From NCBI GenBank assembly GCA_021846275.1, contig JAJZBZ010000001.1:744001-808000 (forward strand): a stretch of 64,000 nucleotides of DNA, written 5' to 3'. Under the pieces are notes generated by a model. It was not told where the DNA came from and ran no database searches. It saw nothing but the letters and a program-made list of their open reading frames with translations. Each line of letters starts with the position of its first letter. The first letter of the stretch is position 1. The stretch is from Acidobacteriota bacterium. Lineage in GTDB: Bacteria; Acidobacteriota; Terriglobia; Terriglobales; Acidobacteriaceae. The position numbers and the translations under genes were made by a program. Shown in pieces: positions 6,126-36,808 of this stretch.

Positions 6126-7601
6126 ATGCCTGTACATCTTCCCCCATCGGTGATTCCGGAAACTCCGACTCCGCTAAATGAGATCGCCGAGGCGGTTGAG
6201 CGGATTGCGCCGCTGCACGGGCTAAGCTCCGACGAGCGGCTGTGGCTGGCCGGGCATGGGCAGGAAATTCGCCTGAAGACCGGAGAGACGCTGTTTGAGG
6301 AGGGTCAGGCTGCGGAGCAGATGATCCTGATTCTGAAGGGCGAGATTCATGTTCGTCGGCACAGGACCGGGCCGATGACGCTGTTTATCGGGCGCGCGGG
6401 GCAGATGACCGGGCTGTTGCCGTACTCGCGCATGACGAATTACGGCGGCCAGGGTTTTGCTGTGCAGGACGTGTGGGCGCTCCTGTTTCATCGCTCGCTG
6501 TTTCCGGAGATGATGCAGGCGATTCCCAGCTTTGGTCAGCGCGTCGTCAACACACTGCTCGATCGCGTGCGCGAGGTGACGCGGATTGAGCAGCAGAGCG
6601 AGAAACTGGTGGCGCTGGGCAAGCTGGCAGGCAATCTGGCGCACGAGCTGAACAATCCCTCGGCGGCGGCGCAGCGCGCGGCCAGCGGCATTCTGAGCGA
6701 GCTGCGCCACTTTGCCGATGGCCGCTACGGACTGGTTTCGCTGTGCCTGAGCGCGGAGCAGGTGATGGCCGTGCAGGGATGGGCGCGCGAGGCGCGGGCG
6801 CGAGCGGCGGAAGCCAGCGGCGAAACGCAGGCGCTGACGGCCGAGCGCGAGGATGTGGTTCTGCGCTGGCTGAGCGAGCAGGGCATCACAGACGGCTGGA
6901 AGATTGCGCCAGAGCTGGCGGAACTGGGCGTGACGCGCGAGGATTTGCAACTGCTGCCGGAGTTTCTCTCGCGCGATGCAATGCAGGTGGTGCTGGATCA
7001 GTTTGCCTCGTCACTGCGAGCCGAGCACTATGCGAAGGCGATGCTGCACTCCTCGGAGCGGATTTTTGATCTGATTCAGGCGATCAAGAGCTACTCCTAT
7101 ATGGATCGCGCGCCGATTCTGGAGGTGGATGTGCCGGAAGGACTGGAGGCGACGCTGCGCATGCTGCAATCGCGCATGAAGGGCGTGGAAATCGAGCGCG
7201 AGTTCCAGAGCGGGATTCCGGCAATCAGCGCGTATGGAAGCGAACTGAATCAGGTGTGGACGGCGCTGATTGAGAATGCGCTGGAGGCGATGAAGCAGAG
7301 GAAGACCGAAGGCGGCCAGTCTGAAGGTTACCAGCCGAAGCTGAAGCTGACCTGCTGCATCGAGGGCGACATGCTGCTGGTGGAAGTCTGGGACAACGGG
7401 CCGGGGATTTCCGCCGAGTTGCAGGACCGCATCTTCGAGCCGTTTTACACGACCAAGGCACCGGGGCACGGACTTGGGCTGGGGCTGGACAGTGCGATGC
7501 GCATCGTGCGCAAGCATCGCGGGCATCTGGGCGTGCGGTCGGAGCCAGGTGCGACCTGCTTCCGTGTGCGGCTGCCGCTGAATCAGCTTCAGGCATATTG
7601 A
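6126..7601 (+). CDS. Soluble sensor histidine kinase with N-terminal cyclic-nucleotide-binding-type domain
   Basis: A 491-residue cytoplasmic kinase. Residues about 30-150 form a CAP_ED-like effector domain (GETLFEEGQAAEQMILILKGEIHVRR). The phospho-acceptor H-box follows (KLAGNLAHELNNPSAAAQRA), and the C-terminus is a GHKL ATPase with an N-box (NQVWTALIENALEAM), G1 (VWDNGPGIS) and G2 (GHGLGLGLDSAMRIVRKHRG). About 150 residues separate the H-box from RIFDLIQAIKSYSYMD, so the dimerisation helices carry a long insertion. No transmembrane segment or signal peptide is seen, so it senses something intracellular. The ATG at 6126 has GGAGG nine bases upstream; a TTG at 6069 is less likely. No response regulator is adjacent. 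Confidence 0.85.
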   Translation: MPVHLPPSVIPETPTPLNEIAEAVERIAPLHGLSSDERLWLAGHGQEIRLKTGETLFEEGQAAEQMILILKGEIHVRRHRTGPMTLFIGRAGQMTGLLPYSRMTNYGGQGFAVQDVWALLFHRSLFPEMMQAIPSFGQRVVNTLLDRVREVTRIEQQSEKLVALGKLAGNLAHELNNPSAAAQRAASGILSELRHFADGRYGLVSLCLSAEQVMAVQGWAREARARAAEASGETQALTAEREDVVLRWLSEQGITDGWKIAPELAELGVTREDLQLLPEFLSRDAMQVVLDQFASSLRAEHYAKAMLHSSERIFDLIQAIKSYSYMDRAPILEVDVPEGLEATLRMLQSRMKGVEIEREFQSGIPAISAYGSELNQVWTALIENALEAMKQRKTEGGQSEGYQPKLKLTCCIEGDMLLVEVWDNGPGISAELQDRIFEPFYTTKAPGHGLGLGLDSAMRIVRKHRGHLGVRSEPGATCFRVRLPLNQLQAY

Positions 7602-7678
7602 GCCGCCGACAACAGCCTCGCTCGCGTATCTGGTGCTGCAAGGTTTTACTGCGCTGTGCCTTCCTCCGAATAGAAAAA

Positions 7679-7720
7679 GCCTGCGACGGCGAGAAACCGT
7701 CGCAGGCTGGTCTGTTTTGC
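7679..7720. terminator. Bidirectional terminator between histidine kinase and M16 peptidase genes
   Basis: GCCTGCGACGG (7679-7689) and CCGTCGCAGGC (7697-7707) form a perfect 11-bp stem with a 7-nt loop. A-rich sequence lies on the left and TGGTCTGTTTT on the right, between two convergent genes, so it can serve both. Confidence 0.8.
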
Positions 7721-7740
7721 TGCGTACTGTTTGCGCCTGA

Positions 7741-10632
7741 CTACTGCTTCGCAGGGTCCGCAGGAGCAGCGACCGGGTTGCCGCTTGGGTCGCGGTACTC
7801 GATTGGGCCGAGATTGGCCGTCTTCAACTGCGACTCGATTTTGGCGCGGTCTCCGACGGCGAGAACGATCAGGTGGTTGGGATGAACGTACTGCTGCGCG
7901 ACGCGCGCAACGTCAGCGGGCGTGACCGCAGCGTAGCGTGCAGGCAGCGTGGCGAAATAATCCTGCGGCAGGCTGTAGACGAAGAGTTCCGACATGAGCG
8001 CCGATTCACTGCCGACGGTTTCAAAGCTGCCGGGCAGCGAGCGCAGCGCGTTGTCTTTGGCCAGCGTCAGTTCGGTGGAGGACGGAGGGTCGGTGCGGAT
8101 GCGATTCAGTTCGGAGAAAAGCTGCGTCGCCGCTGGTCCGGTGACGTCGGTGCGCACCTGAGCGCCAGCATAGAACGGGCCGCCTTCGCGATCAAAGAAG
8201 AAGCCGGAGAATGCGCCGTAAGTGTAGCCGTGCTGCTCGCGCAGGTTCATGTTGATGCGGCTGGAGAACAGGCCGCCGAGGACGCTGTTCATCTCCACGA
8301 TGGCCGTGTGGTCGGGGGTTTTGCGCGGCACGCCGAGACCAAGCGCGAAGAGCGTGGTCTGCGGCGATCCGGGCTTGTCCACGATGACGACCTTGCGCTC
8401 CGGCGCGGCGGGCGGCGCGGGCAGCGTGACCGGACTGGCCGGGACGGAGGGGTTGCTCCAGGCGCCGAAGTATTTCTGTGCGAGCGCGCGGGCCTGAGCC
8501 GGAGTGAGATCACCGGCCAGGACCAGTGCTGAGTCCTGGGGCGCGTAATGAGCCGCCCAGAACGAGGCGATCTGCGGCTGCGTGGTCGCCTTCACGGAAT
8601 CCATCGTTCCAACAGGTGTGAAGCCGTAGGGCTGGTTGCCGTAGAGGAGCTTCGAGCCGACGCGCAGCATGGAGGCGATGGGCTGATCGGACTCCTGAAG
8701 GATGGCGATCATGCGCTGCTTGCGGACGCGCTCGACCTCCTCAGGCGAGAACGCCGGATGCAGCGCAACGTCGGAGAGAATTTCCATGGCCGGGCCGGTG
8801 TTGTTGGTGAGCGAGTCAATGCTGACTCCGGCGGAATCCATGCCGGCGGCGGAACCGATGCTGGCGCCGATCTGGGCCACATCATCGGCAAGCTGGGTCG
8901 CGGAGCGAGTCCTGGTGCCCTGCGTGAGCATGCTGGCGGTGAAGGAAGCGAGGCCGGGCTGATTTGCCGGGTTGGTTTCTCCACCGGCGCGCGTGACCAG
9001 ATTGGCGCTGAGCACGGGCAGTTCGTGCTGCTGAATCAGGTAGACCCTGAGGCCGTTAGAGAGCGTGAAGGACTCCGAGGCTGGCAGATGGAGCTTCGAC
9101 TCGGGGCCGGGCTTCGGCGAATCCTTGCGCCAGTTCTGAGACGCTTCAAAAGCCTGCGAGTAGGGCGGCGTGACGACGGTGTGCAGGTCCGTATCCGCCG
9201 GGCTTCGCGGCACGTCGTCGGTGACCTTCTTGCCGGGGACGCACTGGATGACGACGCGCTGGTTGTCGCCAAAGTACTTCATGGCCGCCTGTTGAATGCT
9301 GGCCGGGGTGAGCGCTTCGTAACCGGCGACATCTTTGGCCAGGTAGCCGGGATCGTGCTCGTACTGGTTGTAGCGGTCCATCATGTCGGCCACGCCACCG
9401 AAGCCGCCGAGGCGCTGGAGGCCCTCAATCATCGAGGTCAGCGTCTTGTTGCGCGCGCGGTCAAGTTCGGCCTGCGTGGGTCCGTTCTTGCGCAGGCTGG
9501 CGATCTCCTCATCGACGCGGCTCTGAATGTCGGCGAGTTTGACGCCGGGGCGCGCGATGATGTCGCACTGGGCCATGGAGGTGATCATGACCTGCTCATC
9601 GGAGCAGCTTACGCTCTGCGCCACCTGATCCTTGTAGACCAGGCGCTGATAGAGTCGGCTGATCTTGCCGCCGCCGAGAATGTCAAGAAACATCTCCGAG
9701 GCGCGATCGCCGGGCGTGAAGGCAGCGGGCGTGAGCCAGCCGAGGCTGAGGCGCGGAAGTTGGACGGTGTCGGTGACGGTTTCGACGCGCTCCTGCGTGA
9801 TGGGCGGCGTGACGACGTGGACAGGAGCGACGGCGGGACCGCGCGGTATGGGACCAAAATACTTCGCAAGCTGCGCCTTGACCTCGGCGGTGTTGAAGTC
9901 GCCGACGATGGCGATGCTGGCGTTGTTGGGCGTGTAGTACTCGTGGAAGAATTCGCGAACGTCGTTGAGGCGCGCGGCTTCCACATCGGCGTGGGAGCCG
10001 ATGACGTTGCCGTAGTAGGGGTGCGTCTTCGGGAACATCAGGTGTCCGACGGCTTCATCGGCCACGTCGTAGGGCTGGCCCTCGTCCTGGCGCAGTTCGT
10101 TGCGGACGACATCGCGCTGGTTGGTCAGCTTGGCGCGGTCGAGCGTCTCCAGCAGGAAGCCCATGCGGTCGCTTTCCAGCCACAGGGCGAGATCAAGCTG
10201 GTTGCTGGGGACGGTCTCGAAGTAATTGGTCCGGTCATAGCTGGTGGTGCCGTTGATGTCGGTCGCGCCCGCGCCTTCAAGATAGCGGAAATGGGCCTTT
10301 TCGCCGACGTGCTCGGAGCCTTCGAACATCATGTGCTCGAAGAGGTGAGCGAATCCGGTGCGTCCGGCGCGCTCGTTGGCCGGGCCAACGTGATACCAGA
10401 GATCAACGGCAACCAGAGGCAGGCGATGATCCTCGCGCAGGATCACAACCAGGCCGTTGGGCAGCGTGTACTTCTCGTACTTGAGGTCGGGAACCTTCAG
10501 CGGCGCGGTTGCGGCAGCCGTGAGCGCCATGCAGGCCGAGAGCAAAGCAACCAGGGCGGATTTTCCGCGGGAGATGGAGCCGGAATGACGCACTGGAGCG
10601 GGACAGGCAGTGCGAACCTTGAATGAATGCAT
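7741..10632 (-). CDS. Secreted M16 (pitrilysin/insulinase) family zinc metallopeptidase, two-domain
   Basis: A 963-residue protein with an N-terminal signal peptide (basic residues, then ALVALLSACMALTAAATA). It contains two M16 halves. The first carries the inverted zinc motif HxxEH (FAHLFEHMMFEGSE) with the downstream Glu in VVRNELRQDEG. The second half (from about FTLSNGLRVYLIQQHELPV) lacks HxxEH and is the usual inactive partner that helps enclose the substrate. The function inferred is degradation of peptides in the periplasm. The ATG at 10632 follows a GGAG site; a longer frame reaching 10692 would bury the signal peptide. The gene stands alone, ending at the shared terminator at 7679-7720. 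Confidence 0.9.
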   Translation of the reverse strand: MHSFKVRTACPAPVRHSGSISRGKSALVALLSACMALTAAATAPLKVPDLKYEKYTLPNGLVVILREDHRLPLVAVDLWYHVGPANERAGRTGFAHLFEHMMFEGSEHVGEKAHFRYLEGAGATDINGTTSYDRTNYFETVPSNQLDLALWLESDRMGFLLETLDRAKLTNQRDVVRNELRQDEGQPYDVADEAVGHLMFPKTHPYYGNVIGSHADVEAARLNDVREFFHEYYTPNNASIAIVGDFNTAEVKAQLAKYFGPIPRGPAVAPVHVVTPPITQERVETVTDTVQLPRLSLGWLTPAAFTPGDRASEMFLDILGGGKISRLYQRLVYKDQVAQSVSCSDEQVMITSMAQCDIIARPGVKLADIQSRVDEEIASLRKNGPTQAELDRARNKTLTSMIEGLQRLGGFGGVADMMDRYNQYEHDPGYLAKDVAGYEALTPASIQQAAMKYFGDNQRVVIQCVPGKKVTDDVPRSPADTDLHTVVTPPYSQAFEASQNWRKDSPKPGPESKLHLPASESFTLSNGLRVYLIQQHELPVLSANLVTRAGGETNPANQPGLASFTASMLTQGTRTRSATQLADDVAQIGASIGSAAGMDSAGVSIDSLTNNTGPAMEILSDVALHPAFSPEEVERVRKQRMIAILQESDQPIASMLRVGSKLLYGNQPYGFTPVGTMDSVKATTQPQIASFWAAHYAPQDSALVLAGDLTPAQARALAQKYFGAWSNPSVPASPVTLPAPPAAPERKVVIVDKPGSPQTTLFALGLGVPRKTPDHTAIVEMNSVLGGLFSSRINMNLREQHGYTYGAFSGFFFDREGGPFYAGAQVRTDVTGPAATQLFSELNRIRTDPPSSTELTLAKDNALRSLPGSFETVGSESALMSELFVYSLPQDYFATLPARYAAVTPADVARVAQQYVHPNHLIVLAVGDRAKIESQLKTANLGPIEYRDPSGNPVAAPADPAKQ

Positions 10633-26426: not shown

Positions 26427-27182
26427 ATGGCACCGAAGGCGAAGATCGCGGCAGCGAAAAAAACTCCTGGGACCATCAAGGCCATTCCGAAGGCCAAAGC
26501 GGCGGAAAAGAAAACGGCCAGGCCCACGGCTGGCGCTGGCGCGGCGAAGAAGCTGAAGAAGAACGCGGCTAAGCGCGCGAAGGCGAGTACGAAGAAGAGC
26601 ATTGCCTCCGTCCGGCCGCTGGCGAAGGTGATCGAGTCAACCATCGCCTTCGAGGGGCCGCTGTTTCGCATTCACCGCGAGCACATTGTTGAACCGGGCG
26701 GGCGCGACGGCTGGCGCGACGTAATTCGCCACAACGGCTCGGTGGTGATTCTGGCCGTGGATTCGGGTAAGCGCAAGGACCGCAAAGATCCGTGGATTGT
26801 GATCGAGCGTCAGTATCGCCATGCCACCGGGCAGTATCTGTGGGAACTGCCCGCCGGAAAGCTGGATCGCGGCGAAGACCCACTGCACGGGGCGCAGCGG
26901 GAACTGGCCGAGGAGACCGGCTACGCCGCGCACCACTGGAGCAAGCTGATTTATTACTACCCCAGTCCGGGATTTCTGGGTGAAGGCATGCACATTTTCC
27001 TGGCTGAGGGATTGATTCCGGGCGAAGCCCATCCGGAAGAGGACGAACAGATTGATTTCCGGCTGGTGCGGCTCTCCGATCTGCTGGAAAAAATCCGAAA
27101 AGGCTCGATCCTCGACGGAAAAACGCTGGTCGGCGCGTTGCTTTTTGCTCAGATGCTGAGCCGAAAGCCACGCAAAAAATAG
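26427..27182 (+). CDS. Nudix hydrolase (ADP-ribose pyrophosphatase-like) with lysine/alanine-rich N-terminal tail
   Basis: 251 residues. The first ~60 are low-complexity Lys/Ala/Pro (KAKAAEKKTARPTAGAGAAK and onward), like histone-H1-type tails. The catalytic part from about SVRPLAKVIESTIAFEGPL contains the full Nudix box: GKLDRGEDPLHGAQ followed directly by RELAEETGY, with upstream ERQYRHATGQYLWELPAG, as in ADP-ribose pyrophosphatases of the NudF group. The expected reaction is hydrolysis of ADP-ribose or a related nucleoside diphosphate. The ATG at 26427 has GAGG nine bases upstream; a GTG at 26397 is possible. The tail may bind nucleic acid or a polyanion, which is inference. Confidence 0.88.
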   Translation: MAPKAKIAAAKKTPGTIKAIPKAKAAEKKTARPTAGAGAAKKLKKNAAKRAKASTKKSIASVRPLAKVIESTIAFEGPLFRIHREHIVEPGGRDGWRDVIRHNGSVVILAVDSGKRKDRKDPWIVIERQYRHATGQYLWELPAGKLDRGEDPLHGAQRELAEETGYAAHHWSKLIYYYPSPGFLGEGMHIFLAEGLIPGEAHPEEDEQIDFRLVRLSDLLEKIRKGSILDGKTLVGALLFAQMLSRKPRKK

Positions 27183-27437
27183 CGTTTTCGCAAAACATCC
27201 GCTCCTCGGAAGCCCCCGCCCGGCTTGCGTAAGATTCTCGATCCCCACACGGGTTTACACTCCGATTTCGGCTCCGGTCTCAGCTACGATTTCGGCTGCG
27301 GTACGGCGCTCCGAAGCCGCCAGCAGGGCCGCGCTGATTTTCCACGGCCACATGGATCGTTTTTCAAACGCAATCAACCTTTCGCACGCTACTTGCGTCT
27401 TAGCAATAGCGGCTCGCACGTCTGTCGCGATCACCGG
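27183..27437 (+). other. Long leader before the cold-shock gene
   Basis: A 255-bp gap precedes the cold-shock start. The frame of the cold-shock gene stays open through most of it, but the translated part (for example [17 protein letters not shown]) does not resemble Csp proteins. Cold-shock mRNAs often have long structured leaders; nothing more specific can be identified here. Confidence 0.35.
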
Positions 27438-27692
27438 ATGAAGGATGGTGCAGAACCTGTGGCGCAATATAAGGGCACGGTCAAGTGGTTTAACAACGCG
27501 AAGGGCTTTGGCTTCATCGGCCGCGAGGATGGCCCGGATGTCTTTGTGCATTACACAGCCATTCAGGTGGAAGGCTACAAATCACTGAAAGAGGGCGATG
27601 CGGTCGAATTTGACATTATCGTCGGCCAGAAGGGTCCGCAGGCGGATGCGGTTGTGCGCTACAAGTCCGCCTCAAAGGACGAAGCGGCATAA
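27438..27692 (+). CDS. Cold-shock domain protein (CspA family)
   Basis: An 84-residue single OB-fold nucleic-acid chaperone. The RNP1 and RNP2 motifs are intact: [20 protein letters not shown] and DVFVHYTAI. Family members melt RNA secondary structure and act in the cytoplasm. The ATG at 27438 is used; a GTG at 27459 ([10 protein letters not shown]) would give a more typical ~77-residue protein and has a GGATGG stretch about ten bases upstream, so either start is possible. It is monocistronic. Confidence 0.93.
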
Positions 27693-27924
27693 AAAAGCCG
27701 AATCGCCTCGCTCCGGAAGAGACGCCCGATCCTTTCGCTGAAGCCAGGTTGGCCTCGCGTGAGTGCATTGCATTGTCGCGCGACCCCATGCGCGGTTTAC
27801 CCTCTGAAACTGTTTCGCCAAAAACTGGACAACGTTCGTTCCGCCGTTCGACAATGGCGGCGTGTCCGCGCGCGTTGCCAAATGCGCAGGGAGCAACTCT
27901 CGCGCTGGATGAGGGGGTGGCGAA

Positions 27925-28524
27925 ATGAGCCTGCTGGAACTGGAAGGCAACTCTGCCCAGAATACGAATCCCTCGCGAAATTCGATGGTTCGCAGCGCGC
28001 TGATTGCCGGCGCGATTCTGGCCGTTGCGCTTGTGGGTTTATGGTTTTATGCGCATCAGCCTCCGCCGCTGGAGGGCCAGGTGGTCCAGCTTTGGATTCA
28101 CCCCATGCACACGGTTCTGTCGCGGCGGGACGCGGCTGGAGTGATTCAGGCACCGGAGCAGTTTGATCAGGTGCTGGTGCTGGCCCAGATTCACCTGCAC
28201 AATCGCAGCGGGCAGCCGGTGATCCTGAAGCAGTTGATGACGAATCTGACGCTGCCGGACGGAATGGATTCAAGCTACGCCGCGACGGCGACGGATTATG
28301 ACCGCGTCTTCGCGGCGTATCCTGAGCTGGCAAGGCTTCGCACCGAGCCGCTGCGCAGCGATACGATGATTGCTGCGAAATCAAGCGTGGATGGAATGAT
28401 CGTGTCCAGCTTCCAGCTCACGGACGAACGATGGAAACAGCAAAGCGGAATGAACTTTGAGATTGATCTCAAAATGCATCCCGCCCTGATCCTGACGGCG
28501 AAGACTCCGGGGACCATCCTTTAG
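27925..28524 (+). CDS. Membrane-anchored protein of unknown function
   Basis: 199 residues with one N-terminal transmembrane helix after a short cytoplasmic stretch (SALIAGAILAVALVGLWFYA) and an exported domain of about 150 residues. The exported part has an immunoglobulin-like beta pattern (QVLVLAQIHLHNRSGQPVIL, MNFEIDLKMHPALILTAKTPG). The ATG is preceded by GGGGGTGG. It is convergent with another single-helix membrane protein. No named family is recognised with confidence. Confidence 0.75.
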   Translation: MSLLELEGNSAQNTNPSRNSMVRSALIAGAILAVALVGLWFYAHQPPPLEGQVVQLWIHPMHTVLSRRDAAGVIQAPEQFDQVLVLAQIHLHNRSGQPVILKQLMTNLTLPDGMDSSYAATATDYDRVFAAYPELARLRTEPLRSDTMIAAKSSVDGMIVSSFQLTDERWKQQSGMNFEIDLKMHPALILTAKTPGTIL

Positions 28525-28570
28525 CCTGGCTGGCCAGCGTCGCCCGCGAACCCTTTGCGCAGGCTGAAAT

Positions 28571-29404
28571 TTATTTGGTCACGTCCACCGGCTTCGGCGC
28601 GTCCTTCGGCGTGGAAAGATAGCCCGTTACCTGGTTCTTGTTGTCGATGGAGTTGATCACAATCTCGTAGAGCATGGGATTGCGCCCGGTGTAGAACTGA
28701 AGCGGCTCGTCGGTGTTGCGATCCTTCTTTTCGTACTTGCGGTCGTCGGCCAGGACATCGAGTGTGAAGCGATTGTGCTTCGGGTCGGCTTTGCGCAGTT
28801 CCAGGCTTACCGTTGCCACCGGCTGCCTGCGTCCGCGAACGAGCTTGAACTCGTAGTAGTTGCGGTCGCCGCGATGCTCCAGCGCCTGCAGTTCGGTGGC
28901 GTTGCGCGCGATCAGGCCGGACTGCATGCCCATGTCGCCCTTCATGGACTGCAACTGCGCGACGGTGTTGGCCAGGTCGGTCTGGGTTTTGGCCACGTCG
29001 GTCTTCACGCCGCCAACATCGGTCTTCACGTTCGAGACTTCGTTGGAAACGGAACTGATCTGTTGCGAATTTTCCTTCTGTGCCGTCTCCAGCCGCTGGC
29101 TATCGGCCTGCTCGCGGCGCAGGATGTCCTGGGCGCGCGCCTCAAGCTGCTTCTGCGTGAGGCCGAGCGACTGGCCCATCTCTTCGCTGGTCACCTTCAG
29201 CCGGGCGTTGGTTTCGCGCAGTTCGGCGGCGAGGCTTGCGGTCTGCTGGTTGGCGTCGCTCAGGGCAGCCGTCTCGCGGCTGATCCTGCCGGAGAGCACG
29301 TAGTTCCAGCCGAGGCTGGCGATGCCAAGCACGAGGCTGGCCGCCACGATGCCGAGCAGTGCGCCGGAGACGGATCGAGAGGGCGTTGCATCAAACTCAC
29401 TCAT
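28571..29404 (-). CDS. Single-pass membrane protein with long coiled coil
   Basis: 277 residues: a short N-terminus, one transmembrane helix (VSGALLGIVAASLVLGIASL), then about 130 residues of coiled coil rich in Gln, Glu, Ser and Val (SSVSNEVSNVKTDVGGVKTD and the following KTQTDLANTVAQLQ show a near-heptad repeat), and a C-terminal globular beta domain (YYEFKLVRGRRQPVATVSLE). The ATG at 29404 has an AAAGGAAG site. The topology suggests a trimeric or dimeric periplasmic stalk. No family name is assigned; the role is unknown. Confidence 0.75.
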   Translation of the reverse strand: MSEFDATPSRSVSGALLGIVAASLVLGIASLGWNYVLSGRISRETAALSDANQQTASLAAELRETNARLKVTSEEMGQSLGLTQKQLEARAQDILRREQADSQRLETAQKENSQQISSVSNEVSNVKTDVGGVKTDVAKTQTDLANTVAQLQSMKGDMGMQSGLIARNATELQALEHRGDRNYYEFKLVRGRRQPVATVSLELRKADPKHNRFTLDVLADDRKYEKKDRNTDEPLQFYTGRNPMLYEIVINSIDNKNQVTGYLSTPKDAPKPVDVTK

Positions 29405-29740
29405 GAAAACTTCCTTTCGCGGGCGGAACATTGAGTAGAAAAATTAACCGGCTCTCGCCGCTGGCCCGCACCATTGTCAGACGCATGGAGTAAAACGCGG
29501 GATGCCAATCCACTCAAAAAGTGTACCGGAGAGGACCGGCCCAGATACGGAAGCCAACGAAATTCCGGAAGGAAAACAGCCGGAGTTTCATCCAGCAGAA
29601 CAAATGCGGGGGGAAAAGTGACAACCAGTAAATCGCTGCGCTATAAAGAGGCTGGTGGTGAAACCGGGAAACGAAGCAACGAATCGCTCGAAGTCCGGCT
29701 CTAACCTGATGGCAAATTGAGACTGGGAGCGAATACATTT
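29405..29740. other. Divergent intergenic region
   Basis: 336 bp between the coiled-coil membrane protein and citrate synthase. A 76-codon frame inside it (29474-29704) is rich in Ser, Arg, Lys and Gly and looks non-coding. The only element I can point to is the sigma-70-like promoter listed separately. Confidence 0.5.
29618..29647 (+). promoter_or_regulatory. Candidate sigma-70 promoter of citrate synthase
   Basis: GTGACA (29618-29623) and TATAAA (29642-29647) are separated by 18 bp and lie about 95 bp before the citrate synthase ATG. Confidence 0.4.
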
Positions 29741-30871
29741 ATGTCGACTGCTGGCAAGGGACTGGAAGGAATTGTAGCCGCGAACTCGGGCATCTGCTGG
29801 ATTGATGGAGACGCGGGGATTCTTTCCTATCGCGGCATCGATATTCACGAACTGGCCAGCCACTCCAACTTTGAAGAGACGACGTTTCTGCTGTGGAATG
29901 GCCGCCTGCCCAACGCAGCCGAACTGAAGGATTTTTCGCGTTCGCTGGCCGAGGCTCGCGTGGTGGACGGGCGGATCATCGACCTGCTGCGCTCGTTCCC
30001 GAAGACGGCCACGCCGATGGAAGTGCTGCGCACGGCGGTCTCCGCGCTGAGCTTTTATGACGCGGACGAACTGGACAACACGCACGACGCAAACGTTCGC
30101 AAGGCTTTTCGCCTGACCGCGCAGGTGGCGATGATCGTGGCTGTTTATGATCGCATTCGCAAGGGAAAGCCTGTTGTGGAAGCGGACAAGAGCCTGACCC
30201 ACGCGGGAAATTTTCTGTGGATGCTGACGGGCGAAAAACCGTCGGAGACGGCGACGCGGACGCTGGATATTGCACTGATCCTGCATGCCGACCATGAGCT
30301 GAACGCATCCACCTTCGCCGCTCGCGTGATCGCGGCCACGCTGTCCGATATTCACTCCGCTGTGACGGGGGCCATTGGCGCGCTGAAGGGACCGCTGCAC
30401 GGCGGAGCCAACGAAGCCGTGATGCGCATGCTCTTCGCCATCGACAAGGCGGGCGCGGATCCGGTGGAGTTTGTGAAGCAGATGCTGGAGGACAAGAAAA
30501 AAGTCTCCGGCTTTGGCCATCGCGTCTACAAAACCGAAGACCCGCGCGCCACGCACCTGCGGCGGATGAGCGAACAGCTTGCGCATGACTCCGGGGTGAC
30601 GAAGTGGTTTGACTGGTCGCGCAGGATCGAGCTGTATATCAACGCGGAAAAGAAGCTGAACGCGAATGTGGACTTCTATTCGGCCTCGACGTATACGACG
30701 CTGGGGATCGATGTGGACCTGTTCACGCCGATCTTTGCCGTGAGCCGCATTGCGGGCTGGTCTGCGCATGTGATCGAGCAACTGGATGACAATCGATTGA
30801 TTCGTCCGCGCGCGGAGTACATCGGACCGGCGTATCCCGCGCCGTATGTGCCGCTGGCCGAGCGCGGATAG
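29741..30871 (+). CDS. Citrate synthase (short, type I/2-methylcitrate-like)
   Basis: 376 residues, the short form without the N-terminal domain of E. coli GltA. Family features are GILSYRGIDIHELA near the start, ILHADHELNASTFAARV with the first catalytic His, PLHGGANEAVMRML with the second, and KVSGFGHRVYKTEDPRA. The expected reaction is condensation of acetyl-CoA with oxaloacetate; short citrate and 2-methylcitrate synthases are hard to separate by sequence, and no prp genes are nearby. The ATG at 29741 is used because homology starts there and GGGAG precedes it; the frame opens at 29717. Confidence 0.9.
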   Translation: MSTAGKGLEGIVAANSGICWIDGDAGILSYRGIDIHELASHSNFEETTFLLWNGRLPNAAELKDFSRSLAEARVVDGRIIDLLRSFPKTATPMEVLRTAVSALSFYDADELDNTHDANVRKAFRLTAQVAMIVAVYDRIRKGKPVVEADKSLTHAGNFLWMLTGEKPSETATRTLDIALILHADHELNASTFAARVIAATLSDIHSAVTGAIGALKGPLHGGANEAVMRMLFAIDKAGADPVEFVKQMLEDKKKVSGFGHRVYKTEDPRATHLRRMSEQLAHDSGVTKWFDWSRRIELYINAEKKLNANVDFYSASTYTTLGIDVDLFTPIFAVSRIAGWSAHVIEQLDDNRLIRPRAEYIGPAYPAPYVPLAERG

Positions 30872-30941
30872 CTCTTCCATTGGAGAATGAGCCTACATTC
30901 AGCGCCCAGTCGCAGAATAGGTTTCGTGGTAATCTGTTGGC

Positions 30942-31163
30942 ATGACTCGCTCAACCGAAATAACGACTCCGATTCCTTCCCTTGAAGACATGGGTGATCG
31001 TCTGGGCCTGAGCAAAAGAGAGCGAAATTCGCTGCAGCGACTCATTTCCAATCCGTCTGGGGACGTCCCTTTCACACGAGCGAAAGCTGGATCCAACGGG
31101 AATCGGTACAGACACTCCTCTACATCCGGCAATCGCTCCGGGAATGCTCGAAGCAGCAAGTGA
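30942..31163 (+). CDS. Small ORF overlapping the TIR-like gene; possibly the frameshifted N-terminus of it
   Basis: 73 codons starting MTRSTEITTPIPSLEDMGDR. The first ~45 residues look like a real small helical domain (LGLSKRERNSLQRLISNPSG). The last ~25 (SNGNRYRHSSTSGNRSGNAR) look like out-of-frame translation. Its stop overlaps the GTG of the next gene (GTGA, 31160-31163). In the reading frame of the next gene the upstream 160 bp is open and encodes WIQRESVQTLLYIRQSLREC, which looks more protein-like. So this may be a genuine coupled partner or the N-terminus of one longer protein split by a -1 frameshift near 31075-31090. Base composition is less GC-rich than neighbours. Confidence 0.5.
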   Translation: MTRSTEITTPIPSLEDMGDRLGLSKRERNSLQRLISNPSGDVPFTRAKAGSNGNRYRHSSTSGNRSGNARSSK

Positions 31164-31792
31164 AGATGCTGCTCTTGAGCAACAACGAAAAGCCGGTTCC
31201 GGATGCCGTTTTCCTCAATATCCCATACGACAAAGATTTTGAACCGCTTTACCTCGCCTACATCGTCGGCCTTGTTCACCTTGGGTTGGAGCCTCGCGCC
31301 ACTCTGCAAATAACCGATGGCACAAGACGCCTGGACAAAATCTTCGAGCTGATCAAGAGCTGCCGATACTCAATCCACGATCTGTCGCGGGTACAACTCA
31401 ACAAGAATAAACCGCGCGTTCCGCGCTTCAACATGCCATTTGAACTGGGCATGGCAGTTGCCTGGGAATCAACTGCTCCGAGCAATTCACACACCTGGTT
31501 TGCCTTTGAAGAAGTTCCGTACCGGTTGCAGATGTCCTTGAGTGATCTGAATGGCACTGACCCACATATTCATGAAGGAACGGCGGCTGGCGTTTTTCGG
31601 GGACTTCGCAACGCATTGATTCGAGTAGATGCGCAGCCTACCGCAAGACAGATGATGCGAACATACGACGCAATCTCCTCCAGACTACCCGCGATTATGA
31701 AAAAGACAGGTGCCGAAAGCTCTTTTGAGGCGAGGGCGTTTCAAGCCATTATCTACACGACCAGAGCCATGATGAATCAAGGCATGGAATAG
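31160..31792 (+). CDS. TIR/nucleoside-deoxyribosyltransferase-like protein of unknown function
   Basis: 210 residues. The N-terminal half has a Rossmann-like order seen in TIR-like and deoxyribosyltransferase-like enzymes: VFLNIPYDKDFEPLYLAYIV, then a DKIFELIKSCRYSIHDLS helix-strand, then RFNMPFELGMAVAW. The Glu of the FELG motif occupies the place of the catalytic Glu in those folds. The rest (HTWFAFEEVPYRLQMSLSDL and onward) is specific to this family. I know similar sequences as unnamed accessory proteins, not as a characterised enzyme. It starts with GTG overlapping the upstream ORF. Lower GC than both flanks suggests transfer. A defence role (NAD or nucleotide processing) is inference only. 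Confidence 0.7.
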   Translation: MKMLLLSNNEKPVPDAVFLNIPYDKDFEPLYLAYIVGLVHLGLEPRATLQITDGTRRLDKIFELIKSCRYSIHDLSRVQLNKNKPRVPRFNMPFELGMAVAWESTAPSNSHTWFAFEEVPYRLQMSLSDLNGTDPHIHEGTAAGVFRGLRNALIRVDAQPTARQMMRTYDAISSRLPAIMKKTGAESSFEARAFQAIIYTTRAMMNQGME

Positions 31793-31892
31793 TTCCGGAA
31801 CACCTCCGCCGATTGGATTTATCGTACTGTCCGACGCTGCTTTGGGACTGCGACGACGATATACGTACAATCATGGAATAGGAGTCTGGACG

Positions 31893-33053
31893 ATGCAGCG
31901 AATCTATATGGATGCCAATGCGACGACGCCGCTGCTGCCGGAGGTTCTGGCGGCGATGGAGCCTTTCTGGATGGAGGATTTCGCGAATGCTTCGTCGATT
32001 CATCATCACGGTCAGGCGGCTCGGCGCGGGGTGGATCATGCGCGGGAGCGGATGGCTGCGTTTCTGGGCTGCCAGGCGGCGGAGGTGGTCTTCAACTCCG
32101 GCGGCACGGAAAGCGACAATACGGCGCTGCGTGGCGTGCTGCGTCCTGGCGACCACCTGATTACGACCGCGATGGAGCACTCGGCGATTCTGACCACGGC
32201 GGCGCATCTGGAGAAGCTGGGCGTGGAGGTGACGCGCGTCGCGCCGCTGGCGGATGGAAGCATGGACCCGGAGGCGATTCGCGCGGCGATCCGACCGAAT
32301 ACGCGGCTGATCAGCATGATGCTGGCCAACAACGAGACAGGCGTGATTCAACCGGCTGAAGCGGTGGGGCGCGTTGCGGCGGATGCTGGCGTGTTGCTGC
32401 ATCTGGACGCCGTGCAGGCGGCGGGCAAGATTCCGATTTGCGTGGAGGAGATTGGCTGCCATCTGCTGTCGATCAGTGCGCACAAGATGCACGGGCCGAA
32501 GGGCGTGGGCGTTCTGTATGTTCGGCGCGGGACGCAGATGGAATCGCTGGTGCTGGGCGGCGGACACGAGCGCCGGCGGCGCGCGGGGACCGAGAACGTA
32601 CCCGGCATTGTTGGGTTTGGCGCGGCGGCGGAGATTGCGAGGAAGTCGCTGGCCGACGGCGCGATGGAGCGGCTTTCTGTGCTGCGCGACCGGCTGGAGA
32701 ACGGATTGCTGAGCCGCATTGCAGGCTGCGGCGTGAACGGCGGCGCTGCACTGCGCGTGGCGAACACGACGAATCTCTGGTTTGACTCGGTGGACAGCGA
32801 GGCGCTGGTGATTGCGCTGGATTTGAAGGGCGTTTCGGTCTCTGGCGGCTCGGCCTGCCACTCCGGGGCGACGGAGCCATCGCATGTGCTGATGGCGATG
32901 GGGCTGGACAAGACGCGCGCGCGGGCGAGTCTGCGGCTGAGCCTGCTGAAGACGGCCACTGAAGCGGATGTGGACGCGGTGCTGGAGATTTTGCCGCCTG
33001 CCGTGGAGCGGCTGCGGGCGCTGTCACCGGCGCTGGCGGGAACGCTGGCATGA
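31893..33053 (+). CDS. Cysteine desulfurase (IscS/NifS family)
   Basis: A PLP enzyme of 386 residues that takes sulfur from cysteine as a protein persulfide. It shows MQRIYMDANATTPLLPEVL, the NSGGTESDNTAL loop, the PLP-lysine region HLLSISAHKMHGPKGVG, GGHERRRRAGTENVPGI, and the catalytic-loop Cys in SVSGGSACHSGATEPSHVL. The ATG at 31893 has an AGGAG site; the longer frame from 31842 is not supported. Its stop overlaps the mnmA start by four bases, so the sulfur donor for tRNA thiolation and the thiolase are made together. No iscU or iscR is adjacent, so it is probably dedicated mainly to MnmA. Confidence 0.93.
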   Translation: MQRIYMDANATTPLLPEVLAAMEPFWMEDFANASSIHHHGQAARRGVDHARERMAAFLGCQAAEVVFNSGGTESDNTALRGVLRPGDHLITTAMEHSAILTTAAHLEKLGVEVTRVAPLADGSMDPEAIRAAIRPNTRLISMMLANNETGVIQPAEAVGRVAADAGVLLHLDAVQAAGKIPICVEEIGCHLLSISAHKMHGPKGVGVLYVRRGTQMESLVLGGGHERRRRAGTENVPGIVGFGAAAEIARKSLADGAMERLSVLRDRLENGLLSRIAGCGVNGGAALRVANTTNLWFDSVDSEALVIALDLKGVSVSGGSACHSGATEPSHVLMAMGLDKTRARASLRLSLLKTATEADVDAVLEILPPAVERLRALSPALAGTLA

Positions 33054-34249
33054 GCACGGCGACGGCAATTTCGGCTGCGAACGCGGCGAAGGATCTGATC
33101 GCGGTGGCGATGTCCGGCGGCGTGGACTCTTCGACCGTGGCGGCGATGTTGCGCGCGCAGGGCGCGGATGTGATTGGGCTGACGCTGCAACTGTGGGACC
33201 AGAATCGGCTGGCGGGCAAGCCGGGCGTGCCGACGCGCTCGACGGGACGGTGCTGTTCGCTGGATGATGTTTACGATGCGCGGCGTGTGGCCGAGACGCT
33301 GGGCATTCCCTACTATGTGGTGAACCAGCAGGATCGATTTGAGCACGACGTGGTGCAGCCGTTTGTGCGGGATTACCTGAACGGGCGGACGCCGATTCCC
33401 TGCTCGCTGTGCAATAACCACCTGAAGTTTGACCAGCTCTTGAAGACGGCGCGGCAGATTGGCGCGACGAAGATTGCGACGGGCCACTACGCGCGCAATG
33501 AGTACGATGCCGCGCGCGGGCGATGGATTCTGCGGCGTCCGGCGGACCTGGCCAAGGATCAGACGTGGTTTCTGTTTGGACTGACGCAGGAGCAGCTTGC
33601 GCATACGCTGTTTCCGCTGGGCGAGAGCACAAAGCCGGAAGTGCGGGAGATTGCCCGGAGCAGCGGCCTGACCCTGGCCGACAAGCCGGATTCGCAGGAG
33701 ATATGCTTCATTCCCGGCGGCGACTACAAGCAGTTCATTGCCAACTATCTGGACGAGCAGGGCGAGCGGCTGCCGGACTCGGCTGGCGAGCTTGTCTCGA
33801 CGAGCGGCGAGACGCTGGGGCAGCACGAGGGGATTCACAACTTCACCATCGGGCAGCGCAAGGGACTGGGCATCTTCGCGCCAAACCCGCTCTATGTGCT
33901 GCATATCGATCCGGCGTCGAAGAGTGTGACGGTTGGGCCGGAGATGGAACTGAACCGGGCGTCGCTGCTGGTGCATCGGCTGAACTGGATCGGGATTGCC
34001 GCGCTCGACGAGCCGCGCCGGGCCGAAGTGCGCATACGGCACAGCCAGCAGCCGACGGCGGCAACGCTGGAACCTGTCGGCGAGGATCGCGTGCGTGTGC
34101 GCTTTGACGAGCCACAGCGGGCCGTGACGCCGGGACATTCGGCTGTCTTCTATGACGGCGATGAGGTGCTGGGCGGCGGATGGATTCTGCCGCCCGAAGC
34201 CGCCGCCGGAGCGATGGGATCAGCGGCCACCGCTCAAGGCTGCTGCTGA
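33050..34249 (+). CDS. mnmA: tRNA-specific 2-thiouridylase MnmA
   Basis: MnmA thiolates U34 in the anticodon of tRNA Lys, Glu and Gln. The 399 residues contain the PP-loop ATP site IAVAMSGGVDSSTVAAML, the first catalytic Cys in TPIPCSLCNNHLKFD and the second in DSQEICFIPGGDYKQFI, which receive and transfer the sulfur. GHYARN and the FTIGQRKGLGI segment are also typical. It is slightly longer than the ~360-380 usual length owing to a short N-terminal extension. It is translationally coupled to the preceding cysteine desulfurase and convergent with the BtuB-like gene. Confidence 0.95.
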   Translation: MSTATAISAANAAKDLIAVAMSGGVDSSTVAAMLRAQGADVIGLTLQLWDQNRLAGKPGVPTRSTGRCCSLDDVYDARRVAETLGIPYYVVNQQDRFEHDVVQPFVRDYLNGRTPIPCSLCNNHLKFDQLLKTARQIGATKIATGHYARNEYDAARGRWILRRPADLAKDQTWFLFGLTQEQLAHTLFPLGESTKPEVREIARSSGLTLADKPDSQEICFIPGGDYKQFIANYLDEQGERLPDSAGELVSTSGETLGQHEGIHNFTIGQRKGLGIFAPNPLYVLHIDPASKSVTVGPEMELNRASLLVHRLNWIGIAALDEPRRAEVRIRHSQQPTAATLEPVGEDRVRVRFDEPQRAVTPGHSAVFYDGDEVLGGGWILPPEAAAGAMGSAATAQGCC

Positions 34250-34285
34250 CCTGCTCCGGCGTAGGCTACACTCGGCAAACCATCC

Positions 34286-36808
34286 TCAGTGCAGCGGCGT
34301 GGCGGACTGCTTGCCGACGGCGATGCGCAGGCCAAGCCGGAAGGTGAATGGCAGGCTGGGATAGCCGATGGGAGCCATGTGCTGGTCGCTGAGCAGGTTT
34401 TCCGCCTGGCCGTAGAGGGCCAGGTGCTGGAGCAACTGGAAGCTGCCGCCGAGGTCGAGATCAGCGTAGCCGAAATCGAGGTTGCGGTTTGGAAGCAGCA
34501 GCGAGTTGCCTTGGTTGATGTCCATGTAGCCAAGGAAGGTGGAGTCGTCGCTGCGGCTGGTGAAGGCTCCGGTGCCGAGGACGGTCCAGCGCGTGCCCGC
34601 ATAGCTGGCGGAGAAATAGCCGCTGTTGGGCGGGCGACGGAATGGGCGAGCGCCATCGAGCGGCGAATAAATGCCGATGGGAATGCCGTTCAATGTTGGC
34701 TCGGTTCCGCTGAGCAGGGCCTGATTGTCGCTGCTGAAGGAGCGCTGAATCACCGCGTCGAGATAGGTGTAACCGGCCTTGTAACGGAAGCCGTGGCCGA
34801 CGCCGCCGTCAATCGTGGCTTCGATGCCCATGGCGCGGAAGGCTTCGGAGTTGATGGTCAGCGAGAAGGCTCCGTCGTTGTTCAGCTCGGCTTCAAGCTG
34901 CTGCTGTTGCGCGGCGGTGAGGCCGGGCAGTAGCTGCGGAATGAGGCCGACGCCGACGGACTCGATCTGACGGCCGAATTCGTTGTGAAAAAGGTTGAGG
35001 TGGAAGAACATTCGCTCGCCGAGCAGGCCCTGATCGAGGCCGCCCTGCCAGGTGCGCGAGGTGGGCGCTTCGAGTTGTGGAATGTGCAGCGCCTGAATGG
35101 TGGACGCGCCGCCATTTTCTTCGAGGAATGTGTAGAGCGAGCCGGACTGATCGGCGACGGTTGGTTCGCGGACGCCCTCGGCGAAGTCGAAGTTGAGGCG
35201 CGTGCCGTTGAAGACGCCGTGGCGCGGGCGGATGAGGTAGTAGCTGAGTCCGAAGCGCGGCGTGACCTGGGTGCCGAAAAGCTGGTAGCGTTCGAGGCTG
35301 CCGCCGAGGGTGTAGAAGAACCGGCTGTGAAAATCGCCGGTCAGCTCGGCCAGGTAGTCGTAGTTATTGCGCTCGACCTCGTCGTTGAGCGCGTAGACCG
35401 GCTCTCGCTCGGCTCCGCGCTCGTTCTGGTAGAAAAAGCCGATGAGTCCGGTGATGTGCGGCGTGAAGTGGTAGTCGCCCTGGTACTGCACCTGATCGCG
35501 ATTGGAGACGAGATCGAGTCGGTTGGGGTAGACCGCGCCGTTGCCGGTGGAGTAATCGAGCAGCGCCTGTCCGACGACCTGGTAGCCGTTGGCGCCGCGA
35601 ATCGTCACGTCCTCGCCGTAGAAGTTGCCGGCGTTGGGATAGGCGAGATTGCAGGTGTTGATCGGCTCGCAGATGCCGGCGGCGTACCACTGCTGGGACT
35701 GCTCGCGCTTGCGCGTGGCCCCGTATTCGACGCGGTTGTGGAAGTCGGGCGTGGCCTGATAGTCGAGCATTCCGGCAACGTAGAGATTCTGGTCGCTCTG
35801 TTTGCGGTCGTCGGGAATGAAGTAGAAGTTCCAGGCGTTGGGCACGCCGACGGCGGAGACGATGTAGTGAGCAGTTCCGCGCAGGGCGAGATTTGCCGTC
35901 GGCTGCCAGCCGATGTTTCCCGCTGCCGCGCCCTCATGGTACTGGTCCATGGGGAGCGCGTTGGCGGTTTGCAGCCAGGAGTACGCGCCGTAGTAATCGA
36001 ATTGCGTGTGACTGCCGGCCAGCTCCAGTTCGTTGCGCGAAGTGTTGAAGTTGCCCACGTCGCCGCGATAGGTGACCGTGGGCGAGCTGGTGAATCCTTG
36101 TGGCGTGTGAAACTGAACGACGCCGGAGGCGGCGTCGGCTCCGTAGAGACTGCTGTCCGGCCCGCGATAGGTTTCGACGCTCTGAATGCCGGTGGTGGCC
36201 ATGTTGCCGTAGTCGAAGACGCCGCCGATCTCATCGATGGGGATGCCGTCGAGCAGGGTGAGGCTGGCGTCCGAGTCTCCGCCACGAATGAAGAGCGATG
36301 TCTGCGCGCCGTACTCTCCGGTTTGCACGACGCCGACGCCAGGCTCGATGCGCATGGCGTTGACGAAGTCTTCCTGGCGATCGAGATCAATGGGCGTGAG
36401 CACGGAGGTTGGCTCGCTGGTTTCGTCCTGGGGAACGGGCGTGCCGGTGGCGGTGACGACGATGGATTCATGGACCCACTCCGGCTCCAGAACCAGCGTG
36501 CGCTCGACGGTGTCGGAGCGTCCGGCGTAAAAGGCGGGGACGTTGAGCTGGCGGAAGGTGCTGGCCTGAATGACGAGCGTGAAGCGACCGCTCTGGCCGG
36601 TGACGAACTGGAATGTGCCGTCGGATCGCGAGCGCGTCTGGTGGATGTATCTGCCGTTGACGCCGAGCAGGATGGTTGCGCCCTGAATGGTTGCGCCCTT
36701 GGTGTCGCGGACGGTGCCGCTGATGACGGCGGCAAGGGCGAAATGGGCTGGGAATAAAGCCAGGCAAAGCAGAATGGACAGGCGCGAACGCCAGCGAAGA
36801 ATACGCAT
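34286..36808 (-). CDS. TonB-dependent receptor under B12 control (BtuB-like)
   Basis: 840 residues with a signal peptide (LSILLCLALFPAHFALA), a carboxypeptidase-regulatory-like beta-sandwich (ISGTVRDTKGATIQGATIL), a TonB-box-like and plug region (SIVVTATGTPVPQ, LDRQEDFVNAMRIEPGVGVV, SLFIRGGDSDASLTLLDGIP), and a 22-strand barrel ending GLRIAVGKQSATPLH. The ATG at 36808 lies about 45 bp downstream of a cobalamin riboswitch on the same strand, which points to corrinoid uptake across the outer membrane. BtuB-type receptors are usually ~600 residues; the extra domain is common in acidobacterial receptors. No btuCDF or cobalamin synthesis gene is in the window. Confidence 0.88.
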   Translation of the reverse strand: MRILRWRSRLSILLCLALFPAHFALAAVISGTVRDTKGATIQGATILLGVNGRYIHQTRSRSDGTFQFVTGQSGRFTLVIQASTFRQLNVPAFYAGRSDTVERTLVLEPEWVHESIVVTATGTPVPQDETSEPTSVLTPIDLDRQEDFVNAMRIEPGVGVVQTGEYGAQTSLFIRGGDSDASLTLLDGIPIDEIGGVFDYGNMATTGIQSVETYRGPDSSLYGADAASGVVQFHTPQGFTSSPTVTYRGDVGNFNTSRNELELAGSHTQFDYYGAYSWLQTANALPMDQYHEGAAAGNIGWQPTANLALRGTAHYIVSAVGVPNAWNFYFIPDDRKQSDQNLYVAGMLDYQATPDFHNRVEYGATRKREQSQQWYAAGICEPINTCNLAYPNAGNFYGEDVTIRGANGYQVVGQALLDYSTGNGAVYPNRLDLVSNRDQVQYQGDYHFTPHITGLIGFFYQNERGAEREPVYALNDEVERNNYDYLAELTGDFHSRFFYTLGGSLERYQLFGTQVTPRFGLSYYLIRPRHGVFNGTRLNFDFAEGVREPTVADQSGSLYTFLEENGGASTIQALHIPQLEAPTSRTWQGGLDQGLLGERMFFHLNLFHNEFGRQIESVGVGLIPQLLPGLTAAQQQQLEAELNNDGAFSLTINSEAFRAMGIEATIDGGVGHGFRYKAGYTYLDAVIQRSFSSDNQALLSGTEPTLNGIPIGIYSPLDGARPFRRPPNSGYFSASYAGTRWTVLGTGAFTSRSDDSTFLGYMDINQGNSLLLPNRNLDFGYADLDLGGSFQLLQHLALYGQAENLLSDQHMAPIGYPSLPFTFRLGLRIAVGKQSATPLH

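Follow-up and report, generated by a model that had tools for sequence, protein, structure and literature searches.

A pair of genes for a small partner and a TIR-type enzyme between citrate synthase and cysteine desulfurase genes of an Acidobacteriota bacterium: a candidate anti-phage cassette

Two small genes on the plus strand lie between the citrate synthase and cysteine desulfurase genes of the window, by which we mean the whole stretch of 64,000 nucleotides that was analysed, from a genome of 3.34 Mb in 13 contigs (best PDB matches of the flanking proteins, E = 9.9e-96 and 3.4e-92, respectively). The first, ORF1 (30942..31163), encodes a small partner protein of 73 aa. The second, ORF2 (31160..31792), encodes a protein of 210 aa which, judged by its sequence, predicted fold and profiles, is a TIR-type enzyme and a putative remote relative of the CAP12/Pycsar TIRs. 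The stop codon of ORF1 and the GTG start codon of ORF2 overlap by four bases (GTGA, 31160..31163, plus strand), making translational coupling of the two genes possible; an alternative ATG start for ORF2 is present at 31166. The first-pass annotation had described two overlapping ORFs at this place, less GC-rich than their flanks, and a closer inspection bears this out. In steps of 500 bases (within 27000-36000), GC content is 0.52-0.54 over the pair, compared with 0.55-0.68 on either side. By gene, it is 0.511 for ORF2 and 0.539 for ORF1; the baseline of 39 crudely called genes of at least 450 nt, all from the window itself, averages 0.630 (sd 0.037), and ORF2 has the lowest value among them. 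ORF1 and ORF2 as one frameshifted gene can be ruled out, because the relatives, too, encode the two proteins as separate ORFs; most of these are read in different frames, the stop of the first being followed by a new start.

Downstream of the pair, a promoter-like site (TTGGGA-18-TACAAT, 31842..31871, plus strand) was located 5′ of the cysteine desulfurase gene by motif scan and comparison with congeners. On its own the site is weak, since one such site was found where 0.7 were expected; the TACAAT ahead of cysteine desulfurase is kept in six near congeners. A second, truncated copy of ORF2, with its own ORF1-like gene, is found on another contig of the same genome (L117, about 7379-10325). 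It adjoins genes for a DNA methyltransferase (PDB match, E = 1.1e-18) and a HindIII-like restriction enzyme (E = 1.5e-34).

Fourteen congeners were screened for ORF2 and none contained a match. The gap between citrate synthase and cysteine desulfurase could be read in 11 of the 14 (the other three loci lack citrate synthase). It measures 1024 bp in the window but only 107-129 bp in six congeners, whose cysteine desulfurases are about 80-83% identical and whose gaps are without a match to ORF1 or ORF2. Five others (L126, L127, L129, L131 and L132) have gaps of 853-1274 bp with different contents, which by eye look like an unrelated gene on the opposite strand, and this gap may therefore take up genes repeatedly. 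No mobile-element gene was visible by eye in the gap of the window. The simplest account is that the pair is a gained cassette, rather than one lost from the near congeners.

Relatives of ORF2 were found at 46 loci in named genomes. Of 200 genomes sampled from the class, 35 carry the family, counting that of the window, and these cover 24 of 82 genera; according to the record titles, the family spans about eight phyla. Moreover, copies from a single class sit in distant clades of the enzyme tree. Horizontal acquisition, as first suggested for this locus, is thus borne out by the absence of ORF2 from the 14 congeners, by a site that is empty in six of the 11 readable ones and by the scattering of same-class copies over the tree. 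No match was found in 50,697 GenBank phage records with the window protein and the member from L174 as queries. In IMG/VR, nine relatives were confirmed from 44 candidate stretches. The phage nature of three of these stretches (L173-L175) is taken from IMG/VR and from reading by eye, since the first gene of L173, which is capsid-like by eye, has no match in the PDB.

The AlphaFold2 model of ORF2 (alignment with 40 relatives) has a pLDDT of 87.8 and a pTM of 0.86. A Foldseek search of the PDB with this model returned SPARTA TIR-APAZ at the top (E = 4.5e-4), followed by TIR-STING and the TIR domain of RUN1, all with modest E-values. VIA-align placed the model closest to DNPH1 (Z = 11.7, 121 aligned residues, 2.7 Å), followed by the SPARTA TIR 8ifl_A (Z = 11.3, 148 residues, 4.8 Å), AbTir (Z = 11.2, 129 residues, 3.0 Å), RUN1 (Z = 11.2) and the CMP N-glycosidase BcmB (Z = 10.7). 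The model supports a fold of the TIR/nucleoside-hydrolase type, with the flavodoxin-like form of a TIR. The first-pass annotation had proposed just such a TIR/deoxyribosyltransferase-like fold, and the model resembles both groups, TIR domains and DNPH1-type hydrolases, to about the same extent; the fold alone cannot part the two because their Z values are tied. The aligned TIR fold stops near residue 159, and the remaining ~50 residues are modelled as two helices (162-183 and 191-206). With its 210 aa, ORF2 has no fused cyclic-nucleotide sensor domain. A PDB profile search with the enzyme set gave three weak rows, the best being phosphopantetheine adenylyltransferase (E = 0.022).

ORF2 received no family call in Pfam, NCBIfam or PADLOC. 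At E-values up to 10 it matched neither PF10137 nor PF05014 in Pfam, nor any PADLOC model, ThsB included; a DndB hit (E = 0.16) was taken as chance. When 41 family members were searched against Pfam at E up to 1, eight weakly reached PF10137 (best E = 1.3e-4) and none matched the deoxyribosyltransferase model. Comparison of profiles was more informative. The enzyme set aligned by hhalign with ten PF10137 members from class genomes at a probability of 94.2 and a score of 50.0, collinear over about 110 columns, compared with maxima of 20.2 for 60 column shuffles and 11.6 for the reversed profile. Against nine PF05014 members, seven of which are near-copies, the probability was 48.4 and the score 31.0, which is still above the shuffles of the PF10137 set. 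Against six TIR_2 neighbour proteins, a small set, the probability was 0.13, and kinship may still exist. Under other hhalign settings the probabilities were 92.8 for PF10137 and 2.6 for the deoxyribosyltransferases, so that the order is stable and the latter figure is not; the values of 94.2 and 48.4 are used here. Among the three profile sets compared, ORF2 is therefore to a degree nearest to the CAP12/Pycsar TIRs, and we file it, on its profiles, as a remote relative of these TIRs. It is placed outside PF10137 itself because it has no Pfam match, and outside Thoeris because it has no match to a ThsB model.

The residues of the predicted active site are strongly conserved. Strand A (residues 16-20, 31205..31219, plus strand, as are all features of ORF2 given here) carries F18 and N20. 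In strand C (residues 70-74, 31367..31381), H73 and D74 are each present in 83 of 84 enzymes. The motif RFNMPFELG (residues 89-97, 31424..31450) contains R89, N91, E95 and G97, and SDLNG (residues 128-132, 31541..31555) contains S128, D129 and G132. All the residues named for these two motifs but G132 (83/84) are found in 84 of 84 enzymes, as is R57. The motifs that had been pointed out at the start, SCRYSIHDLS and RFNMPFELG among them, do occur in ORF2 in the order given, and the Glu of the FELG context is part of helix C, where the profile alignment sets it on the Glu of the CAP12-type TIRs. In the profile alignment, R89-x-N91-MPF-E95-L-G97 falls on RxN...E(L/F)G of PF10137 and S128-D129-x-x-G132 on PSDxxG. 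TIR-STING has a catalytic Glu according to the excerpted text of PMC13142454, and by its position Glu95 is the putative catalytic residue of ORF2.

A different chemistry has to be considered here, in which ORF2 is a nucleotide or deoxynucleotide N-glycosidase of the DNPH1, NDT or CMP-hydrolase kind that serves salvage, sanitation or attack on phage nucleotides, and NAD+ is no substrate. DNPH1 gives the top Z value, BcmB is not far below, the fold and the position of the Glu are shared with DNPH1 and the nucleoside 2-deoxyribosyltransferases, and the profile alignment with PF05014 exceeds the shuffles. However, the profile of ORF2 is nearer to PF10137, none of the 41 members searched matches the deoxyribosyltransferase model and position 18, which probably corresponds to the active-site Tyr, is Phe (81 of 82 filled rows). 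F18 aligns with a Phe of PF10137, and with the strand-A Tyr of PF05014 only in a low-probability alignment. In the part of PMC11204291 available, this position is described as usually Phe or Ala in NADase TIRs and Tyr in deoxynucleotide enzymes. On the placement of F18 and this rule, NAD+ would be the likelier substrate of ORF2, and we consider the N-glycosidase reading very unlikely.

TIR-STING and PycTIR carry a fused cyclic-nucleotide sensor domain. ORF2 resembles these CAP12/Pycsar TIRs in its collinear profile, in both motifs and in the register of the Glu, and TIR-STING is among the first Foldseek matches of its model. It differs in lacking a Pfam match to PF10137, in being too short to include a fused STING or cyclic-nucleotide domain, in having two helices after the TIR fold and in being accompanied by a separate gene for a small partner.

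Nearly every relative is preceded by a small gene that is read in the same direction and abuts or overlaps the enzyme gene. A conserved and exchangeable partner had not been recognised as such in the first-pass annotation. Partner types were compared for 84 enzymes: that of the window, 74 from other genomes or plasmids and nine from IMG/VR. The upstream gene is of DUF2188 type in 33, ORF1-like in 27 (the window's included), Lys-rich in 12 and a TIR gene in six; it is none of these in a further six, four of which have an unclassified small ORF in that place. A small partner of one of three types is thus found ahead of 72/84 enzymes, and a partner or TIR gene ahead of 78/84. These labels were assigned by us, some by eye (including L053, L087, L168-L171, L174 and L175) and others from low profile scores (L109, 0.075), on neighbourhood genes that were crudely called (longest ORFs first), with some ribosomal and phage gene names given by eye. 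All 21 partners of the first DUF2188 set scanned matched PF09954 and all six upstream TIR genes matched PF13676. The partner in L100 (8620-8919), which was counted as ORF1-like, begins like ORF1 and continues with a piece of DUF2188, and so links two partner types. ORF1 itself differs from DUF2188 in having no match to PF09954 at E up to 1. Its model is of low confidence (pLDDT 67.3, pTM 0.32), with predicted helices at residues 14-21 and 25-36 that are helix-turn-helix-like and no predicted structure in the remainder. A hit of ORF1 to DUF434 (E = 0.0027, under that model's cut-off) was taken as chance.

The partner type follows the enzyme tree. Partner labels change ten times over the tree, compared with a mean of 42.5 for shuffled labels, and none of 200 shuffles gave so low a number, although the shuffles are lenient because near-copies make any label cluster. 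All 27 ORF1-like rows fall within one starred clade of 28 rows. The tree is of a quick kind with SH-aLRT support only, and leaves out eight of 83 loci in which the enzyme piece is shorter than 170 aa (L012, L017, L024, L038, L043, L044, L115 and L117). In the class of the window (33 rows) there are 21 ORF1-like, five DUF2188, four TIR and three other partners. Class rows with differing partners sit in distant clades, which speaks for enzyme and partner having been transferred together. A small partner that is swapped between clades yet kept within them is the new part of this finding. The arrangement at the locus, with a small same-strand gene directly upstream and a GTGA overlap, is also that of a type II-like toxin-antitoxin pair.

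The neighbourhoods of the relatives were inspected for links to defence. In one IMG/VR stretch, a Thoeris locus (L176, 377-6358), genes for DUF4062, ThsA_Macro, ThsB_TIR, a ThsB-like TIR, DUF2188, the enzyme, a second ThsA_Macro and a TIR-TM protein follow one another on one strand (ThsA_Macro, E = 2e-55 and 1.5e-46; ThsB_TIR, E = 4.8e-17). In L169 (2275-4600), the HTH (E = 2e-32) and reverse transcriptase (E = 1.4e-75) genes of a type VI retron lie directly 5′ of a Lys-rich partner and enzyme. In L102, a TIR gene is paired with the enzyme, and a Cmr2-like gene, with best matches to GGDEF-named chains (E = 7.9e-24) and to Cas10/Cmr2 (E = 5.9e-20), is about 4 kb away. The pair is beside capsid genes in L170 (E = 6.1e-34) and L171 (E = 1.8e-94, to Rcc01687, the capsid protein of the gene transfer agent of Rhodobacter); in L171 (2528-4618) the DUF2188 and enzyme pair adjoins the capsid gene, which is on the opposite strand. 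A TIR_2 gene is paired with the enzyme in six loci, which may represent one event because all are on one side of a branch. Of the 35 class genomes with the enzyme, 25 also have TIR_2 matches, 71 in all, of which 67 exceed the cut-off. A TIR_2 gene is directly upstream of the enzyme in four cases among about 29 class enzymes, where by our own arithmetic about 0.015 would be expected by chance within 1 kb; this count was made after the pairs had been seen, and the four share one clade. Lastly, four Tenacibaculum loci (L030, L031, L035 and L052, about 7130-7660) have a related short gene, membrane-like by eye, 5′ of DUF2188 and the enzyme. The two of these short genes that were scanned matched DUF4231 and SLATT under the cut-off (E = 3.4e-4 and 1.3e-3; 5e-5 and 4.4e-3), and that of L052 matched SPC25 just over it (E = 2.8e-5).

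A wider comparison did not reveal a defence island. When 20 in-class loci were scanned with PADLOC (E of 1e-8), no clear enrichment was found over 20 control regions of the same class. The former (137 genes) gave 81 families and the latter (140 of 141 genes) gave 20, but these are counts of families listed rather than of proteins with a match, and the lists give no clear difference because many families fall on one protein. The in-class matches listed (25 of the 81) include a methyltransferase, AbiTii, Cmr1/Csm3, PD-T4-6, LmuB, E1-E2, mad3, mad6, a CARF type and candidate families; the control families are Argonaute types, mad3, mad8, RT, bSEFIR and candidates. Of the 32 loci L085-L116, the scan took the 20 that extend for 4 kb on each side, and some partner or TIR genes of at least 100 aa were still in the set. 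Within the class, the comparison leaves a defence-island model unsupported. Our impression, made without a tally, is that the nameable neighbours of the relatives are mostly housekeeping genes, and the pair keeps a fixed position in three loci of alphaproteobacteria (L046, L047 and L051) and in Tenacibaculum.

These observations also bear on whether the pair has a defence role at all. It could instead be a regulatory or metabolic TIR-fold pair that has travelled by transfer and that some lineages retain for housekeeping tasks, as the housekeeping neighbours, the long-kept places in alphaproteobacteria and Tenacibaculum, the PADLOC result and the small number of confirmed viral loci would suggest. 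Set against this are the patchy spread over genomes and genera, the insertion at a site that is empty in near congeners, the truncated second copy beside methyltransferase and HindIII-like genes, and the links to Thoeris, a retron and TIR genes. We regard the lack of any defence role as decidedly unlikely. The anti-phage role that had been proposed for ORF2 from its sequence is thus circumstantial: the Thoeris locus, the type VI retron, the six TIR pairs and the Cmr2-like gene near L102 speak for it, and the housekeeping flanks and the PADLOC comparison of 20 loci do not. Some relatives of the gene are nevertheless found beside defence genes, and the fold is of the kind that had been predicted.

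The Thoeris locus raises a second possibility within defence, that ORF2 is a ThsB-like TIR which uses NAD+ to make a signal nucleotide, the effector that responds to it being encoded at another place, with the partner as phage sensor or adaptor. ORF2 shares the TIR fold with ThsB, and in L176 the pair sits between ThsB-type and ThsA-macro genes; one or several ThsB proteins are possible per Thoeris system according to the available text of PMC11204291. The six pairings with a TIR_2 gene and the short membrane-like genes of Tenacibaculum, with their DUF4231 and SLATT matches under the cut-off, would also fit a signal maker. Unlike a ThsB protein, the enzyme of L176 itself has no ThsB match in PADLOC at E up to 0.001, and 78/84 relatives of ORF2 stand behind a small partner or TIR gene. 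No ThsA or other effector gene was recognised, however, beside the window pair, which is flanked directly by the genes for citrate synthase and cysteine desulfurase, and a search of its own genome for TIR_2 and PF10137 gave no match. The nearest modelled relatives, moreover, are NAD+-depleting (TIR-STING) or NADases upon oligomerization, as the excerpted text of PMC13142454 has it. We therefore judge a signal-making role unlikely.

Taken together, the data are best explained by a horizontally acquired two-gene cassette of immunity type, in which an NAD-cleaving TIR enzyme is coupled to a dedicated small partner and which is probably anti-phage; we give this reading just under an even chance. 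ORF2 would be a single-domain TIR enzyme of a subfamily for which none of the libraries searched has a dedicated model, and would most likely cleave NAD+ via Glu95 upon assembly. ORF1, encoded first, would be its dedicated partner and would bind ORF2 to hold it back or license it, like an antitoxin or a detached sensor. Phage infection would lift this hold, after which NAD+ would be lost and the cell would stop. NatT, a protein of the RES fold, belongs to a pair of comparable logic. In the part of PMC11535050 available, NatR-NatT is a toxin-antitoxin pair and NatT an NAD+/NADP+ phosphorylase, so that by analogy an NAD+-consuming enzyme and its partner may be encoded as a gene pair in both cases. 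Unlike in NatR-NatT, the enzyme here is of TIR type, the partner comes in several forms and inhibition by the partner is putative.

A bolder form of the cassette reading, which we think possible but on balance doubtful, is that a single-domain CAP12-like TIR is gated by a separate and swappable small protein (ORF1-like, DUF2188, Lys-rich or a second TIR), so that the partner would act as phage sensor and be exchanged while the killing enzyme stays. TIR enzymes form a core of immunity that bacteria have in common with plants and animals. According to the excerpted text of PMC11312562, the way in which those of bacteria detect infection is for the most part still to be worked out. If the swappable-sensor reading is true, DUF2188 gains a function, and the small partners would be exchangeable sensors of a defence system found in about eight phyla and in phage or gene-transfer-agent-like elements. 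The cassette, as a widespread TIR-like subfamily whose window member goes uncalled by Pfam, NCBIfam and PADLOC and which is kept with a small partner that follows its tree, may be an unrecognised anti-virus switch. The enzyme and partner, at less than 900 bp, form a testable unit.

The pair also gives a lead to the function of DUF2188. By title and start of abstract, none of the literature that names DUF2188 was about its function, and among the matches listed none concerned the ORF2 family. Nor did DUF2188 have a relative among solved structures (best E = 0.14). The class sample contains 22 DUF2188 genes, of which 14 have no enzyme gene next to them. Neither the enzyme nor PF10137 nor the small TIR set found a match in the stretches around these 14 (up to about 3 kb per side, some shorter). 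DUF2188 therefore has a life outside the pair. Several of these solitary genes (L207-L220) end in a PDKWRK-like motif.
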